This document shows positions 41,539 to 47,374 of a stretch of 64,000 nt of DNA, piece after piece. The DNA is from Algimonas porphyrae (GTDB lineage: Bacteria; Pseudomonadota; Alphaproteobacteria; Caulobacterales; Maricaulaceae). The notes below the pieces were generated by a model that saw nothing but the letters and a program-made list of their open reading frames with translations, searched no databases and was not told the origin of the DNA. Where the stretch lies: positions 558,001 through 622,000 of the forward strand of contig NZ_CP163424.1 of NCBI RefSeq assembly GCF_041429795.1, in the 5' to 3' direction. Position 1 is the first letter of the stretch, and every line of letters begins with the position of its first letter. The translations under genes were made by a program, and so were the position numbers.

Positions 41539-42015
41539 ATGAACGTCACATTGCGATTTCTGGCGGGCTGGCTCTTTGGCGCGTCCGTAACGACGGTGCT
41601 GGCCGTGATCGGGCAGACCCAGATCGTTCTGGCCCGCCTCAATGCCGTCGGGGCGGAGATCACTCTTGGCGACCGGCTGTCCATGACAGCTTATGATCTG
41701 ATCCATCTCGGCTCGATCTACGGAATTATCATCTTCGCGGGCACGTTGATCGCCTATCTGGCAGGCCTGCTGGTTTATCGCGCAGCCGGTTTTGGGCGTC
41801 CGGTTGTTTTCATCACAGCGGGGACCGTCGCGATGGTTGTCATGCTGCTGGCGATGAAAGCAGCCTTTTTCGACATTACCCTGATTGCCGGTGCGCGCGG
41901 CCCTCTGGGCCTGAGCCTGCAACTGGGCGCCGGGGCTGTCGGTGGCTGGGCTTTCGCCGGACTGACACAGCGCCTCAAGGTCAGGCAATCACGCCGAAAG
42001 CGCGTGACAGTCTAG
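41539..42015 (+). CDS. Uncharacterised four-helix membrane protein
   Basis: 158 residues with four membrane segments (about 5-27, 58-80, 87-107 and 118-142) and a strongly basic end (RLKVRQSRRKRV). No family recognised. It faces the hybrid kinase gene and the two stops overlap through CTAG. Confidence 0.7.
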   Translation: MNVTLRFLAGWLFGASVTTVLAVIGQTQIVLARLNAVGAEITLGDRLSMTAYDLIHLGSIYGIIIFAGTLIAYLAGLLVYRAAGFGRPVVFITAGTVAMVVMLLAMKAAFFDITLIAGARGPLGLSLQLGAGAVGGWAFAGLTQRLKVRQSRRKRVTV

Positions 42016-44675
42016 GCGGCTCGCCCGACGGTCTGGATCTGGCTGAGTGCAGCCTCGATTTCTGCTTTCGTCACGGGATGGGTCAGCACATGATCGAACA
42101 TCGCGTCATCGGCATCAACACCGGTCTGTCCGGGTCGTGCCAGTGCAATGAGGGGAACCTGCCCCGCTGGCACGGGCAATTGCCGAATTCGCGCCGCCGT
42201 ATCACGTCCGCCCAGCGCGGGGCTGTGCAGGTTCAGAATGACGACGTCGAAACGTTTGCGCTCGAGCTGTTCAATCAGCTGGTCGGCCTGATCGACGGCG
42301 ACTGTCTGGCAGCCCATTGATTTGAGCGCGGCACGCATTTCGCTGGTCTGAAGGGTCAGGTCATCCCCGACCAGTAAGGTCAGGGAGGATAGGGCCGTCG
42401 CTCCCTGTGCCGACAGTCTGGCGGGCGAGACGTCCGTCGTCTCGGCGAAGAGCTGCTGCTCCAGCATCAGGTCGATAATTTCTTCCGGCTCGCTCAACGC
42501 GTCCAGGCCAGCGGGTGCCGGGGCGGTAAGTGTCTGCGGGCCGGCTTCTGCGGCAAGCATTGTTTCTGCCTCGACCGCCAGTTCGGGCTCATAGGCATCG
42601 GCGCGGGGCAGGCGCGCCGTGAAATGAAATTCGGATCCGCGCCCTTCGCGCGAGGTGACGGTCAGGTCGCCATCCATCATGCGGGCCAGTTTGCGGGCAA
42701 TCGCAAGGCTGAGACCTGCGCCGCCATATTTACGCGTCATGGTGCTGTCGGCTTGCAGGAAGGGTTTGAACATGCGTTCCTGCACGGCTTCGCTGATCCC
42801 CTGACCCGTATCGGCCACAACCAGGCTCAGCGCCATATGTTTGGGCCCGTCCGGTTCGGCGGTGGCGTGCAAATGGATGCGGCCTTCATGCGTGAAGCGG
42901 ACGGCATTTGACAGCAGGAAGCGAACGCATTGGCGAATCCGTTTCTGGTCGCCGACGATCAGCGTACCGACTTCGGGCGCAACATAATGGCTGAAGGCGA
43001 CGTTTTTCTGTTCTGCCGCAGGCTCCCAGCTTTTCGCTTCTGCCGTAATCGTGCGCGACAGATCGGCCTCGTCAGCAGCCAAAGCCAGACGGTTGCCTTC
43101 GATCGTGGACATGGTGATCAGACTGTCGAGCAGATCGAATAGAAGTTGTCCGCTCTCCTGCACCGCCTCGGCCTGGGCTTTTGTTGTCGGGTCGGAGGCA
43201 TTGTGGATCATGGCGTCGCTAATGCCGATGATACCGTTCAGCGGAGTCCGCAGCTCATGATTGACGATACCGAGGAATTCGGTCTTCATCTTCTCCGCAG
43301 AGAGCGCGTCTTTCTGGAGCGCCTGGACCTTGCGGCTGAGCTTTTCGCGGTAGCGCAGGAAGGCCAGCAGCATGTTGAACGCGATGGTCAGGACAGCCAG
43401 CAAGACCCAGAGCAGGCGGTTCATCTTGGTCTGCTGTTCCAGCTGTACAGCCTTCAACGCCGCTTCGCGTGCCAGTGCATCTTCGCGTTCCAGCTGACGC
43501 CCTTGCGTGTTCTCCAGACTGGACAGAAGAGCGGTCATATTGGCCGAGTTTGAATTCTGGACGCGGGAGATGATCAGGTCGGTCCGGCGCTTCATCAGCG
43601 CCAGCGCGAAAGCCGAGTCTTCGCGGTGCATGGCAATCAGGGCTTCCGCATGAATGACGGCTTCGGCGGTGATGTCGTTAAGCAGCTCGTCGCGACTGTA
43701 AACCCAGCCCTGTTCCGTCATGATCGCGCGGGCTTCCGCTTCGCGGCCGAGCCCGGCAAGGCCGAGCATATGGGCATAATGCGCGCGCCTGCGGATCTGA
43801 GGGTGTTTGGTGACGGCCAGTGATTGCCGGGCCAGATCGCGGGCTTCTGCGTAGCGCCCGACTTCGACAAAGGTCTGTGCCACATAGACCTCGCCCAAGC
43901 CTTCGATCATATTCTCGGGCTGGGGTTCGATCAGCATCAGTTCTGCAACTTGGGCCGCGCTTTCAAAATCCCGGACCCGATTAAAAGCATAGACGAAATT
44001 GGTCATCAATTCGTAGCGATTGAGGGTTTCCCCGATGGCTGCCTTGGCCTTGCGCTGCGTCCGGGCCGCGTCGAGCATGAATACAGGATTGCCTTGAAGT
44101 CCGTGCAAGGTCATGGCGACTTCGGATGCCAGCAGACGGGCACTCGTGGCCCAGTCCGACAATTCCGTCGGTATAATATGCATCGCTTGATCAAGGTGCT
44201 CTGCGGCCCGAACCGTATCGTTGAGTGACACCAGGGTGAAGGCCGTCAGGCTCTCGGCAATGGATTCGATGTACCAGTCGGTCTGATGCGGGTGGGATTG
44301 AAAATAGCTTCTGAGTTGATCGAATCGATCGACCTGATTCTCATTGTCGAACAGGGTGAGGACGGTTTCGGAAAAGTCCAGAATGCGAAGGGAGGCGGGC
44401 GACATGGCGTTCGCCTCCGCGCGGGCCGTTTCGACCGCGGCCTCGATCCGGGATTTGTCCGCATTGACCAGGGCTTCGATCAGCTCGTTCATGAGGTCGT
44501 AACCCAACCGGTCGCGCTTGCGAAGCGACAGTTCGACCGGATTGACGGGTTCGGCTTCACTGAAAAAATCGACGACCGCGTCGCTGATCAGAATAGATCT
44601 GTCCGAGGCCTGTGCCAACGGCACGCAGCACAGGCTGAATAAGCAGCTCAGCCAGAGATATCGCGCAAAGAGTGT
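42012..44675 (-). CDS. Hybrid sensor histidine kinase with TPR sensor and degenerate receiver
   Basis: 887-888 residues starting at TTG (44678-44676), with a signal peptide (LFARYLWLSCLFSLCCVPLAQA). A large periplasmic helical region (about 30-410) looks like TPR repeats, e.g. GRYAEARDLARQSLAVT. One membrane segment lies at 422-443. HisKA has His474 in NHELRTPLNG; the ATPase domain has LLSNAVRF, ADTGQGIS and YGGAGLSLAI. The C-terminal receiver (about 764-885) keeps the acidic pair GDD, but the phospho-Asp is Asn816 (VVILNLHSP) and the conserved Lys is His867. A GG-leader peptide gene lies 126 bp upstream on the same strand. Confidence 0.88.
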   Translation of the reverse strand, partial: TLFARYLWLSCLFSLCCVPLAQASDRSILISDAVVDFFSEAEPVNPVELSLRKRDRLGYDLMNELIEALVNADKSRIEAAVETARAEANAMSPASLRILDFSETVLTLFDNENQVDRFDQLRSYFQSHPHQTDWYIESIAESLTAFTLVSLNDTVRAAEHLDQAMHIIPTELSDWATSARLLASEVAMTLHGLQGNPVFMLDAARTQRKAKAAIGETLNRYELMTNFVYAFNRVRDFESAAQVAELMLIEPQPENMIEGLGEVYVAQTFVEVGRYAEARDLARQSLAVTKHPQIRRRAHYAHMLGLAGLGREAEARAIMTEQGWVYSRDELLNDITAEAVIHAEALIAMHREDSAFALALMKRRTDLIISRVQNSNSANMTALLSSLENTQGRQLEREDALAREAALKAVQLEQQTKMNRLLWVLLAVLTIAFNMLLAFLRYREKLSRKVQALQKDALSAEKMKTEFLGIVNHELRTPLNGIIGISDAMIHNASDPTTKAQAEAVQESGQLLFDLLDSLITMSTIEGNRLALAADEADLSRTITAEAKSWEPAAEQKNVAFSHYVAPEVGTLIVGDQKRIRQCVRFLLSNAVRFTHEGRIHLHATAEPDGPKHMALSLVVADTGQGISEAVQERMFKPFLQADSTMTRKYGGAGLSLAIARKLARMMDGDLTVTSREGRGSEFHFTARLPRADAYEPELAVEAETMLAAEAGPQTLTAPAPAGLDALSEPEEIIDLMLEQQLFAETTDVSPARLSAQGATALSSLTLLVGDDLTLQTSEMRAALKSMGCQTVAVDQADQLIEQLERKRFDVVILNLHSPALGGRDTAARIRQLPVPAGQVPLIALARPGQTGVDADDAMFDHVLTHPVTKAEIEAALSQIQTVGRAA

Positions 44676-44741
44676 CAAAACATACCCAATCTCCAGATCG
44701 GCTAGCCTGACGGGCTTAAGGAACGGTATCTTTACAAAAGA

Positions 44742-44765
44742 AAACCCGCTCAGATGAGCGGGTTT
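44742..44765 (-). terminator. Terminator between the GG peptide gene and the kinase
   Basis: AAACCCGCTC and GAGCGGGTTT pair perfectly around a 4-nt loop. On the minus strand TTTTCTTTTG follows. A second hairpin, GACAGC-GAAT-GCTGTC (44783-44798), sits between it and the peptide stop. The peptide gene is thus a separate transcript from the kinase. Confidence 0.8.
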
Positions 44766-44804
44766 GTGTCCACATGATGAAAGACAGCGAATGCTGTCAG
44801 TTTT

Positions 44805-44879
44805 TTAGAAGTCTTGGCCGACAATGATCGGCACGCCGCCGGTCACGACTTCGAGTTCTTCAACAGTCAGTTCACGCAT
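44805..44879 (-). CDS. Short double-glycine leader peptide (24 residues), predicted export substrate
   Basis: Too short for routine gene calling. The ATG at 44879 is preceded by AGAAGGA, 9-10 nt away. The leader is MRELTVEELEVVTGG and the product after the Gly-Gly is the nonapeptide VPIIVGQDF, followed by TAA. The leader obeys the rule for C39-cleaved peptides: hydrophobic residues at -4 (Val), -7 (Leu) and -12 (Leu), Glu at -8, Gly at -2 and -1. The C39-domain exporter gene ends 211 bp upstream on the same strand. The core is far shorter than class II bacteriocins, nearer the size of a pheromone. Existence as a gene is inferred from leader, ribosome site, terminator and context. Confidence 0.82.
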   Translation of the reverse strand: MRELTVEELEVVTGGVPIIVGQDF

Positions 44880-45090
44880 TATATTGAGTCCTTCTCTTTG
44901 TGGTTGCGCGAGCGGATTATTCCACTCGCGGGAGAATACTTAAGCAAAAGTAAACTTCCCCTATCAAGAGAAAAATGTATTATTTTGAGATTTTTTATAG
45001 TTAACGCACTGTAAATGCACTATTTTATGGTTAATCAGTTGTGTCAATTCGATGCGTTCTAACTGAGGTTGTGCAATAATTATTCATTAA
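44880..45090 (-). promoter_or_regulatory. AT-rich leader and promoter region of the peptide gene
   Basis: This 211-bp gap is visibly AT-rich (for example TATTATTTTGAGATTTTTTATAG near 44979-45000 in pieces) in a GC-rich genome. A 9-bp hairpin, CGCGAGCGG/CCACTCGCG (44907-44930), lies 28 nt before the peptide start in the mRNA leader. Exact promoter boxes are not clear. Confidence 0.55.
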
Positions 45091-47190
45091 CTATGATTGT
45101 GACACTGTGATGACCCTGTCACTGGCCTCCAGAAAGGCCGGGCGGTGCGCAACGATCACCCGCGTCATGTCCAAACCGGACACAAGTGCGACGATCTGCG
45201 CCTCTGTCTCTGTGTCCAGATTGGCAGTGCCTTCGTCCAGAAACAGAATGTCGGGTTTCTGATAAAGCGCGCGGGCCAGCAGGAGGCGCTGTTTCTGCCC
45301 GCCCGACAGGATTGATCCCATATCGCCGATGACGGCCAGATAGTTCATCGGGATGGCCGCAATCGTTTCATGGATGCGGGCGGCCTGTGCGGCCTGAATG
45401 ACGCGCTGCATGTCAATTTCCGGATCGAAGAAAGCAATATTATCGGCAATCGTTCCCGACAGGAGCCGGTCATCCTGCATCACCACGCCAACGCGGCTGC
45501 GCCAGTCCGCTGGGTCGATCGTGCTCAGATCCCGCCCATCGATCTGGATGCTGCCATCATTCGGCGCGTAAAGTCCCAGCATCAGCTTCATCAATGTCGT
45601 CTTGCCGCCGCCTGACGGACCGGTCAGCGTCACCATCTCGCCCGCTGCAACATCCAGATCGAAGTCTGTTACGACCAGCGGGTCTTCGGGCGAATAGGCG
45701 AAGGTCACGCCGTTCAGCGTAATCCGTCCCTCGAGCGGGCCCAGCGGGGCATAGCCATGCTGGTCGCGGTCGGGCGCAGCGTGGATAATGTCAGCCAGAC
45801 GGTCGAGATGAAGCGACAGCAGACGGAATTCGTTGCCCTTGGTGACCAGCTGGACAACCGCATCCGCGAAATATTGCCGGTAGATCAGGAAGGCGACGAG
45901 CATGCCGACCGTGAAGGTGGATCCGCCAGGGTCATCCGGGGCCGTCATCATCCAGGCGGCAGCCACGACGACGGCAACGACCTGCACACCGATCAGCAAT
46001 GTCTGCGCAAATGTCTGCGCCACCTGCCAGCGTTGATGGGCCATGTCGGAATTGATGAAATCGGTAAACAGATTGGCCCAGCTTGCCTCCCGCTCCGCTT
46101 CGCGGCCAAACAGCTTGACGGTCGTGGACGCCCGGATGCTCTCGATGACATGGCTGTTTTCCAGTGCCCGGGCATAGATGGCTTCTTCCTGAGTGGCGCG
46201 CAGTCGCGGGTAAAGAACCAAGGTCGCCAGTACGAGCAGGGCGGTCGTGATGACCACGATCAGCGCCAGCAGCGGCGAGAAGATGAACATGACGAACAGC
46301 ATCAGAGTCGCCATCGCCCCGTCTATCAGAACGGAAACGACGGATTGGGATAGCGCTTCCTGAATCGGCTGTGTTGAATTCATCCGGCTGATAATGTCGC
46401 CGACATGGCGGCGTTCGAAATAGCGCACGGGCAGGCGGATCAGGTGACGAAAGATATTGCCGACCATCTGTCGTGACAGCTGCGCGCCGAAAGTCACGAT
46501 CGTGTAACCGCGTGCCGCTTCGACGATGGCCCGCATCACGGTCAGCGCGCCAAAGCCGATCGCCAGAGCTATCAGCAAATTTCTGTTGCCACCTGGCAAA
46601 TCGGGGGAGGGTAGGACGGCATCGACGATCAGTTGAAACAGAAAGGGTGCCATCAGAATCGTGCCCAGCAAAGCGATCGACAGGAGCAGTGTCTGCGCCA
46701 CAGCGCGTTTGGCCCCGACGAGTGACGACCAGAGATCGGACAGGCGTGGGCGGATCCGGTCCGTGATGGGCTGGAAATCAGCCGCCTGCGTCAGTTCCAG
46801 CGCAACCCCGGTAAAATGATCGGAAACCTTGGACAGGGGCAATGTTCGCTGTCCGATGCCCGGATCGTGGATGAAAACCCGGTCGCCGCGTACGCGTTTC
46901 AGGACCACATAATGGTTCAGGTCCCAATGCAGGATGGCGGGCGTGGCCAGCTTGTGCAGCTGGTCCAGATCAACGCGCAGAGCCCGCGGCGACAGGCTGA
47001 GAGATCCGGCGATCTTGATGATTTGCTTCAGCGACGTGCCTCGCATGGAGAGCAGATATTTGTCCCGCAGCGAATTCAGATCGACGTCATGGCCATGATA
47101 GCGTGCCACCATGGCGAGGCAGGCCAGACCGCATTCCGTCATTTCCGTCTGCAGAATGACGGGGAGACGGCTGGAGAACAGCTCAGCCAC
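45091..47190 (-). CDS. C39-peptidase-containing ABC exporter (PCAT)
   Basis: 699 residues. The N-terminal C39 peptidase has Gln14, Cys20 in EMTECGLACLAM, His93 in HWDLNHYVVL and Asp109 in IHDPGIG, so it looks active. An exporter membrane domain (about 160-445) is followed by an ATPase with GPSGGGKTTLMK, LSGGQKQRLLLAR, FLDEGTANLD and VIVAHRP. Such proteins remove the double-Gly leader and export the peptide through an HlyD-type adaptor and TolC. The start is GTG 47190, with GGAG 8-9 nt upstream inside the end of the mini-HlyD gene; the two overlap by 8 bp. Confidence 0.95.
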   Translation of the reverse strand: MAELFSSRLPVILQTEMTECGLACLAMVARYHGHDVDLNSLRDKYLLSMRGTSLKQIIKIAGSLSLSPRALRVDLDQLHKLATPAILHWDLNHYVVLKRVRGDRVFIHDPGIGQRTLPLSKVSDHFTGVALELTQAADFQPITDRIRPRLSDLWSSLVGAKRAVAQTLLLSIALLGTILMAPFLFQLIVDAVLPSPDLPGGNRNLLIALAIGFGALTVMRAIVEAARGYTIVTFGAQLSRQMVGNIFRHLIRLPVRYFERRHVGDIISRMNSTQPIQEALSQSVVSVLIDGAMATLMLFVMFIFSPLLALIVVITTALLVLATLVLYPRLRATQEEAIYARALENSHVIESIRASTTVKLFGREAEREASWANLFTDFINSDMAHQRWQVAQTFAQTLLIGVQVVAVVVAAAWMMTAPDDPGGSTFTVGMLVAFLIYRQYFADAVVQLVTKGNEFRLLSLHLDRLADIIHAAPDRDQHGYAPLGPLEGRITLNGVTFAYSPEDPLVVTDFDLDVAAGEMVTLTGPSGGGKTTLMKLMLGLYAPNDGSIQIDGRDLSTIDPADWRSRVGVVMQDDRLLSGTIADNIAFFDPEIDMQRVIQAAQAARIHETIAAIPMNYLAVIGDMGSILSGGQKQRLLLARALYQKPDILFLDEGTANLDTETEAQIVALVSGLDMTRVIVAHRPAFLEASDRVITVSQS

Positions 47191-47374
47191 GCAGCCAGCT
47201 CCAGATGGTCTGACCGTTCACATCGATTCCGAACAGGATTCCGCCAATCATCGACCCCACGCCCATGATCAGCACACCGACACACCAAAGCGGCAACGGA
47301 CCACATAGAACCACCTCACCAAACAGAGCGCGCGAGCGGCGCTCCATGGCTTCCTTGCGAAATAGCTGGCTCAT
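47183..47374 (-). CDS. Mini HlyD-like protein (N-terminal anchor only)
   Basis: 63 residues. SQLFRKEAMERRSRALFGEVVLCGPLP matches, in layout, the cytoplasmic start and first strand of HlyD/CvaA adaptors (written here in full only to its first 27 by family; key residues are FRKEA, the Arg pair and GEV). One membrane segment follows, then GIDVNGQTIWSWLRG and a stop. A normal adaptor has over 300 further periplasmic residues; here the exporter gene begins at once. The 8-bp overlap with the exporter suggests coupled translation. ATG 47374 follows AGGGAGG; ATG 47389 and 47413 are in frame. Confidence 0.7.
   Translation of the reverse strand: MSQLFRKEAMERRSRALFGEVVLCGPLPLWCVGVLIMGVGSMIGGILFGIDVNGQTIWSWLRG

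Follow-up and report, generated by a model that had tools for sequence, protein, structure and literature searches.

A short-peptide gene between a C39 exporter and a TPR histidine kinase points to an undescribed Gram-negative peptide signalling system in Algimonas porphyrae and its relatives

What could a gene of 24 codons be doing between a peptide exporter and a sensor kinase? The question is raised by a window of 64,000 nucleotides from Algimonas porphyrae LMG 26424 (contig NZ_CP163424.1, positions 558,001 to 622,000), in which four genes follow each other on the minus strand: a truncated HlyD-like adaptor (mini-HlyD), a C39 exporter, a peptide precursor gene with a Gly-Gly (GG) leader, and a hybrid histidine kinase with a tetratricopeptide repeat (TPR) sensor. 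We consider it probable, from the way these genes are arranged and conserved, that the peptide is the ligand of the kinase encoded next door and that the locus is a short linear peptide signalling module. Its features are:

47183..47374, minus strand: mini-HlyD, 63 aa; cytoplasmic N-terminus and single transmembrane helix as in CvaA-type adaptors, then a short tail in which a Trp is conserved; periplasmic adaptor body absent
45091..47190, minus strand: C39 peptidase-ABC exporter, 699 aa, GTG start, assigned by its Pfam domains
44805..44879, minus strand: peptide precursor gene; leader MRELTVEELEVVTGG (44879-44835), core VPIIVGQDF (44834-44808), then the stop codon
44742..44765, minus strand: intrinsic terminator read from the sequence, a strong hairpin between the peptide and kinase genes; 29 of 34 loci have one
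42012..44678, minus strand: TPR hybrid histidine kinase, 888 aa from a TTG (start uncertain); N-terminal hydrophobic segment, periplasmic TPR sensor, one further transmembrane segment, HisKA, HATPase_c, degenerate receiver
43317..44678, minus strand: sensor region of the kinase (residues 1-454), the basis of profile A3 and of the structure model

An earlier note, made from the letters of this DNA, had described a nonapeptide GG precursor with ribosome site and terminator, a C39 exporter with an intact Cys/His/Asp site upstream on the same strand, a tiny HlyD-like protein overlapping it, and downstream a membrane kinase with a large helical outer domain. All four descriptions stand. The open reading frame (ORF) of the peptide has an AGAAGGA ribosome site upstream and its terminator behind it; the mini-HlyD overlaps the GTG start of the exporter by 8 bases; and the kinase carries a helical domain of ~400 residues and a transmembrane segment at 425-441. 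The exporter contains Peptidase_C39 (E 4e-36), ABC_membrane and ABC_tran domains, and its Cys20, His93 and Asp109 are invariant in 12 aligned sequences including that of the window. With this triad, the ABC membrane and ATPase domains, and a substrate with a Gly-Gly or Gly-Ala leader nearby, it has what defines a C39 peptidase-containing ABC exporter; its C39 domain is the single one found in the A. porphyrae genome. No Pfam match was obtained for the mini-HlyD or the peptide.

Is this arrangement maintained beyond one genome? We compared 18 genomes of the genus (its own included), searched 137 genomes of the family and fetched 40 loci; the relatives' contigs are the best 80 of at least 581 confirmed candidates, and many of the compared genomes are metagenome assemblies. 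An exporter orthologue of at least 65% identity occurs in 14 of the 17 other genus genomes, three of them as fragments at contig ends; in the remaining genomes the exporter has only 44% identity (G012) or is absent (G003, G005). A short GG peptide gene lies 3' of the exporter in the 11 genus loci with enough contig, the window's own included, and in G009 a peptide gene follows an exporter end on a separate contig (MRELSTEELDVVVGG-NPITIEI). A TPR kinase follows the exporter as well, even in genomes whose flanking genes differ (G006, G008, G013, G016, G017), and the family search and fetched loci extend the module to further genera.

The linkage is sharpest when C39 loci are divided by their adaptor. 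Among 128 distinct loci, 107 had at least 1300 bases before and at least 1000 after the exporter; of the 21 short-flank loci set aside, ten have a mini-HlyD, one showing the kinase and the rest being unable to show one. A mini-HlyD was scored in 30 of the 107, all of them with kinase and short or tandem peptide, whereas none of the 70 loci with a full HlyD has the kinase within the 6 kb scanned downstream. No HlyD was found in the other seven, one of which (L092) has the kinase; since reading of its sequence reveals a 71-aa mini-HlyD, all 31 mini-HlyD loci have both a TPR kinase and a GG-leader peptide gene. These loci are related by descent, and the counts therefore describe a conserved unit rather than 107 independent trials. 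Conservation of the peptide beside the exporter, which the earlier note had named as a test, thus held in 31 of 31 loci with enough flank (L092 with its atypical long core among them), and no leader frameshift was seen in the loci read.

When 398 genomes of the order were sampled, three genomes outside the family (four loci) had exporter matches at E 1e-205; the kinase was seen at none of the four loci, three of which have a full HlyD and one (L197) too little flank. In a class sample the sensor profile matched none of 384 other genomes at E 1e-30. As far as sampled, the module is apparently confined to one GTDB family of marine alphaproteobacteria. Larger GG peptide ORFs occur at other C39 loci: besides its mini-HlyD module, the G015 genome holds a further C39 exporter, at L047 (8519-11841), which is followed by a complete HlyD of 411 aa and has a larger GG peptide ORF close by in the opposite orientation (MEYMMRELTTDEMHKTGG...), and L098 and L099 hold one or two larger bacteriocin-type GG peptides (MRELKDIETDEVNGG..., MRELTFEEANEVGGG...) and no kinase match.

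What, then, is conserved in the peptide itself? There are 37 complete Gly-Gly or Gly-Ala precursors, leaving aside one cut by a contig end: 28 with a single core of 5-11 residues, eight with two to four tandem copies and one long. All but three stand behind an exporter or exporter fragment; each of the three adjoins a kinase, and the stretch read there holds no exporter. Proline is the second core residue in 31 of the 37. Single cores include APIIVDF, YPIIVDF, LPIVIDF, SPIVIDF and RPIIVEW, and the tandem cores are FPIIIG (three copies), RSIKT (four), FPIDIEV (two), TPIDIEL (three), IPVIDF (four), LPADIEW (four), LPIDIEV (three) and GPVIIET (three); each of the eight tandem precursors ends in a core at the stop codon. 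Deviant cores (KIVVD, KVVVDY, KRLKIKV) occur in three loci of one genus. The ratio of nonsynonymous to synonymous differences (pN/pS) is 0.35 in the leader. At core residue 1, pN is 0.73 against a pS of 0.81, whereas residues 2 and 3 have a pN of only 0.21 and 0.16; the leader and the Pro-Ile pair thus appear to be under purifying selection, with the first core residue nearly free. The peptides of G031 and G033 are identical despite three synonymous changes, and the close pair G112/G113 differs at core residue 1. By these measures the precursor DNA evolves as coding sequence, and the peptide genes are evidently not chance ORFs.

The strongest case for an action of the core on the kinase comes from loci in which the exporter is missing. 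Profile A3 found the kinase in 45 of the 137 family genomes at E 1e-15, and the stretch upstream was read where no C39 exporter adjoined it. In G022 a GG precursor with three cores is kept beside the kinase, the only C39 exporter found lying elsewhere with a full HlyD. In three further genomes, ORFs of 8-11 codons without any leader stand 5' of the kinase, each with ribosome site and terminator: MRGPIIIL in G005 (L189), MTKNPIIIG with a GTG start in G023 (L200) and MSIRKQPIVDF in G040 (L202). The NPIIIG of G023 recurs as the core of a GG precursor in G036. The pattern, which was defined after these ORFs had been seen, turned up in 0, 1 and 0 of 1000 shuffled versions of these 400 bases at L189, L200 and L202, and before none of 12 further kinases (eleven from other families and that of G035). 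G005 (96% complete) yielded no C39 domain, and G023 and G040 have one distant C39 gene each, on other contigs (38% and 30% identity). By the kinase tree, G005 falls within the genus, next to G006 and G017 (support 96/95), and G023 pairs with G022 (100/99), so that the leader appears to have been lost secondarily at least two times; the long branch of G040 has no sure placement. It thus seems that within the genus leader and exporter disappeared together, while the kinase kept its core; the core would accordingly belong with the kinase and not with export.

For G003, G014, G011 and G024 the kinase is at a contig end, which leaves its upstream stretch unreadable. In families f4 and f5, whose kinases match A3 more weakly (E 1e-17 to 1e-29), 12 loci were read and none has a peptide ORF upstream; eleven of these loci also entered the shuffle comparison. 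The kinases at L210-L221 are TPR histidine kinases of other families in the order (E 1e-20 to 1e-29 to A3), several of which stand, by eye, behind the same upstream gene; micro-genes like those at L189, L200 and L202 may be overlooked beside other TPR kinases.

Could the kinase bind such a peptide? An N-terminal hydrophobic segment and one transmembrane segment before the H-box were found in 35 of 41 kinases by a simple hydropathy scan, which would place the TPR domain outside, unlike the cytoplasmic receptors of the RRNPPA family; the other six, including those of L189 and L200, have no N-terminal segment above the threshold. The sensor's sequence profile matches only generic TPR proteins. 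An AlphaFold2 model of the window sensor from 7 sequences is all-helical, with a mean predicted local distance difference test score (pLDDT) of 77.9. Its top five Foldseek matches among 350,542 PDB chains are NprR, RapH, the Rap protein of phi105 with its peptide, NprR again, and NprR with NprX; 22 of the 50 chains listed are RRNPPA proteins. With the sensor of Litorimonas cladophorae (pLDDT 72.1), RapH and a Rap-CSF complex rank first, and 14 of 50 chains are RRNPPA proteins beside many other TPR proteins. From linkage, fold and retention of the core, we infer that the TPR sensor probably binds the core.

Several observations weigh against this interpretation. By query, the TM-scores to RRNPPA chains range only from 0.29 to 0.49; E 0.001 is attained by just two matches of the first model, and generic TPR proteins obtain similar scores, more so for the second model; such modest values indicate a likeness of fold, not proof of membership. 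In a partial Mantel test over 25 loci, core and sensor distances showed no significant relation (r -0.03 and -0.14, p 0.61 and 0.92, with exporter or kinase distances removed), and core distances instead tracked the kinase core given the sensor (partial r 0.22, p 0.017). The test gives no support for pairwise core-sensor coevolution; it has little power, as the cores are very short and the sensors share 27% mean identity. The distances are near saturation. The core of L092 is long and atypical, the divergent kinase of G035 has no visible peptide ORF upstream, and the pattern of leaderless ORFs was framed after the fact. The leaderless peptides, moreover, lack an explained route to a periplasmic sensor. 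Downstream signalling raises further doubts: in the receiver of the window kinase (42045-42374, minus strand) Asn replaces the phospho-acceptor Asp (FDVVILNLHSP), which all 22 relatives aligned there possess, the kinases of G001 and G015 have no receiver domain, and no cognate response regulator is encoded between or beside the module genes of the window.

Where would the peptide go? The mini-HlyD orthologues align to about residues 3-46 of a 411-aa HlyD and then continue in a tail of their own. Adaptors at the mini loci measure 63-106 aa, in place of the full-length periplasmic adaptor of tripartite type 1 secretion of the CvaABC kind. We considered whether the mini-HlyD is a decayed gene and rejected this, as its length stays within that range in the loci read and the tail Trp is invariant in 12 aligned sequences. 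A search of the A. porphyrae genome with one CvaA-type HlyD yielded one weak match (28% identity) beside another ABC gene and two short fragments, and no good partner. As the mini-HlyD is reduced to its membrane anchor, without the periplasm-spanning part, and a good CvaA-type partner was not found, the peptide is probably released into the periplasm, which is the simplest reading.

The region 5' of the peptide gene offers a hint of its regulation, with two features in the window:

45019..45047, minus strand: sigma-70-like promoter TTGACA-17-AATAGT 5' of the peptide gene; a consensus match only (3 found in the region against 1.4 expected)
45027..45034, minus strand: TTAACCAT, an exact CtrA half-site between both promoter hexamers, read from the sequence with the motif as defined in excerpts of PMC3692519

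Those excerpts give TTAA-N7-TTAAC as the full CtrA site and TTAACCAT as the half-site. Of 41 regions 5' of peptide genes, 31 contain TTAACC, compared with 6 of 50 intergenic regions (from 21 sources) taken as background; TTAA-N7-TTAA is found in 12 against 1, and [GT]TTAACCAT in 13 against 1. The spacing is not wholly specific, since TTAA-N6-TTAA is present in 7 of the 41 (resampled maximum 7). These CtrA-type boxes faintly suggest feedback with the CckA-ChpT-CtrA cell-cycle network.

With this in mind, one may propose the following sequence of events. The 24-codon gene would be transcribed on its own, and the C39 exporter would cleave its product after Gly-Gly and move the core, VPIIVGQDF, across the inner membrane. 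The core would not be channelled across the outer membrane but set free in the periplasm, where it would bind the TPR domain of the adjoining kinase, an arrangement that may amount to an RRNPPA-like receptor moved to the outside of a histidine kinase. The kinase would then pass the signal to an unlinked regulator, and the CtrA-type boxes might close a loop with the CckA-ChpT-CtrA network. The earlier note had proposed a Gram-negative circuit with the logic of ComC/ComAB/ComD; conservation and kinase linkage support that proposal in silico, with the refinement that the sensor is RRNPPA-like and release may be periplasmic.

Other explanations have to be weighed against a periplasmic ligand. As GG leaders and C39 exporters are known mostly from bacteriocins, the product could be a very small antimicrobial, akin to a microcin or to a ribosomally synthesised and post-translationally modified peptide, exported by its own transporter while the kinase only regulates the cluster. 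The leader matches four NCBIfam models of such peptides, all below cut-off, and some related full-HlyD exporters do accompany larger bacteriocin-type GG peptides. We nevertheless regard this as unlikely: the single cores have just 5-11 residues, the gaps (~142-280 bases from exporter to peptide gene, 54-188 from peptide gene to kinase) leave little room for immunity or modification genes, genes further off not having been examined, and the adaptor cannot reach the outer membrane. Retention of the core beside kinases without exporter or leader, and variability of residue 1 within a fixed Pro-Ile frame, also speak for something other than a toxin. Slightly less probable still is a cis-acting leader, in which translation of the ORF or a stalled nascent chain would control, with the terminator, read-through into the kinase gene. 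The terminator between the two genes does exceed expectation (29 of 34 loci, against 2-7 per round in ten resampled controls), and the leaderless ORFs keep the same order; of an attenuator, however, one would expect neither a conserved Gly-Gly leader with a C39 exporter nor tandem cores repeated with spacers.

A more serious contender, though one we hold to be doubtful, is a fully extracellular quorum-sensing signal that would be exported by way of a TolC-like channel and a full-length adaptor from other loci, with the mini-HlyD as an accessory. The logic of ComAB-ComC-ComD in Gram-positive bacteria speaks for this, as does G022 with its precursor beside the kinase and its exporter and full HlyD elsewhere; against it stands the poor yield of the adaptor search in the A. 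porphyrae genome, in which outer-membrane factors were not searched. Since this alternative overlaps the signalling module we favour and differs only in the peptide's destination, the degrees of confidence we attach to them do not sum to one. A broader proposal, to which we lend only tentative credence, is a Gram-negative counterpart of RRNPPA signalling in prosthecate bacteria: self-signals of 5-11 residues, whether from single-core, tandem or bare 8-11 codon genes, would act in the periplasm, be read by outward-facing TPR kinases and be wired to the CtrA cell-cycle network.

How does the module relate to known systems? Judged by titles and the beginnings of abstracts, searches of the open PMC literature turned up no description of a peptide gene, C39 exporter and TPR kinase together in these bacteria, and our findings point to an undescribed Gram-negative peptide signalling system. 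Dirix and colleagues reportedly surveyed Gram-negative genomes for double-glycine peptides at an early date. The ComC-ComAB-ComD and Blp-type systems likewise unite a double-glycine precursor, a C39 exporter and a membrane histidine kinase in one locus, but they are Gram-positive and have polytopic ComD sensors, longer pheromones and a linked response regulator, in place of which the window has a receiver fused to the kinase and degenerate. With class II microcins and CvaAB type 1 secretion the module shares the C39 exporter and the homologous adaptor N-terminus; here, in contrast, the adaptor is truncated to an anchor, the core is far shorter and a kinase is present.

Single elements of the module have parallels in other Gram-negative bacteria. 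According to excerpts of PMC10986499, HetC of Nostoc is a C39 exporter with no adaptor gene nearby, for which delivery of a signal to the periplasm has been proposed on grounds similar to ours; its substrate is given there as unknown and no kinase partner is named. Gram-negative C39 exporters are otherwise linked to toxins; the same excerpts of PMC10986499 call further roles probable, without evidence. PMC4997328 assigns Synechococcus GG peptides a role in biofilm development. FimS of Porphyromonas gingivalis is, like our kinase, a histidine kinase with a periplasmic TPR sensor, of unknown ligand, for which a polypeptide has been proposed; it belongs to another phylum, and the excerpts of PMC11053733 mention no linked peptide gene.

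The closest likeness is to the RRNPPA systems of Bacillota (Rap-Phr, NprR-NprX, PlcR-PapR, AimR), which supply the first PDB fold matches and share short linear peptides, single or tandem, and a TPR receptor; excerpts of PMC9765709 and PMC11343458 describe tandem pheromones and variability gathered at one position there as well. They differ in that their receptor is a cytoplasmic regulator to which the peptide is re-imported, whereas here a histidine kinase would carry the TPR domain on its outer side, and the precursor has a C39-type leader. Short linear peptide pheromones with TPR receptors are known so far from Gram-positive bacteria and their phages. The module offers 38 natural peptide-kinase pairs, some with kinases cut by contig ends, and as the family has cultured, non-pathogenic marine members such as A. 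porphyrae and L. cladophorae, a Gram-negative use of such peptides is directly testable. The leaderless genes, with just 8-11 codons, illustrate how tiny a gene for a signal may be.

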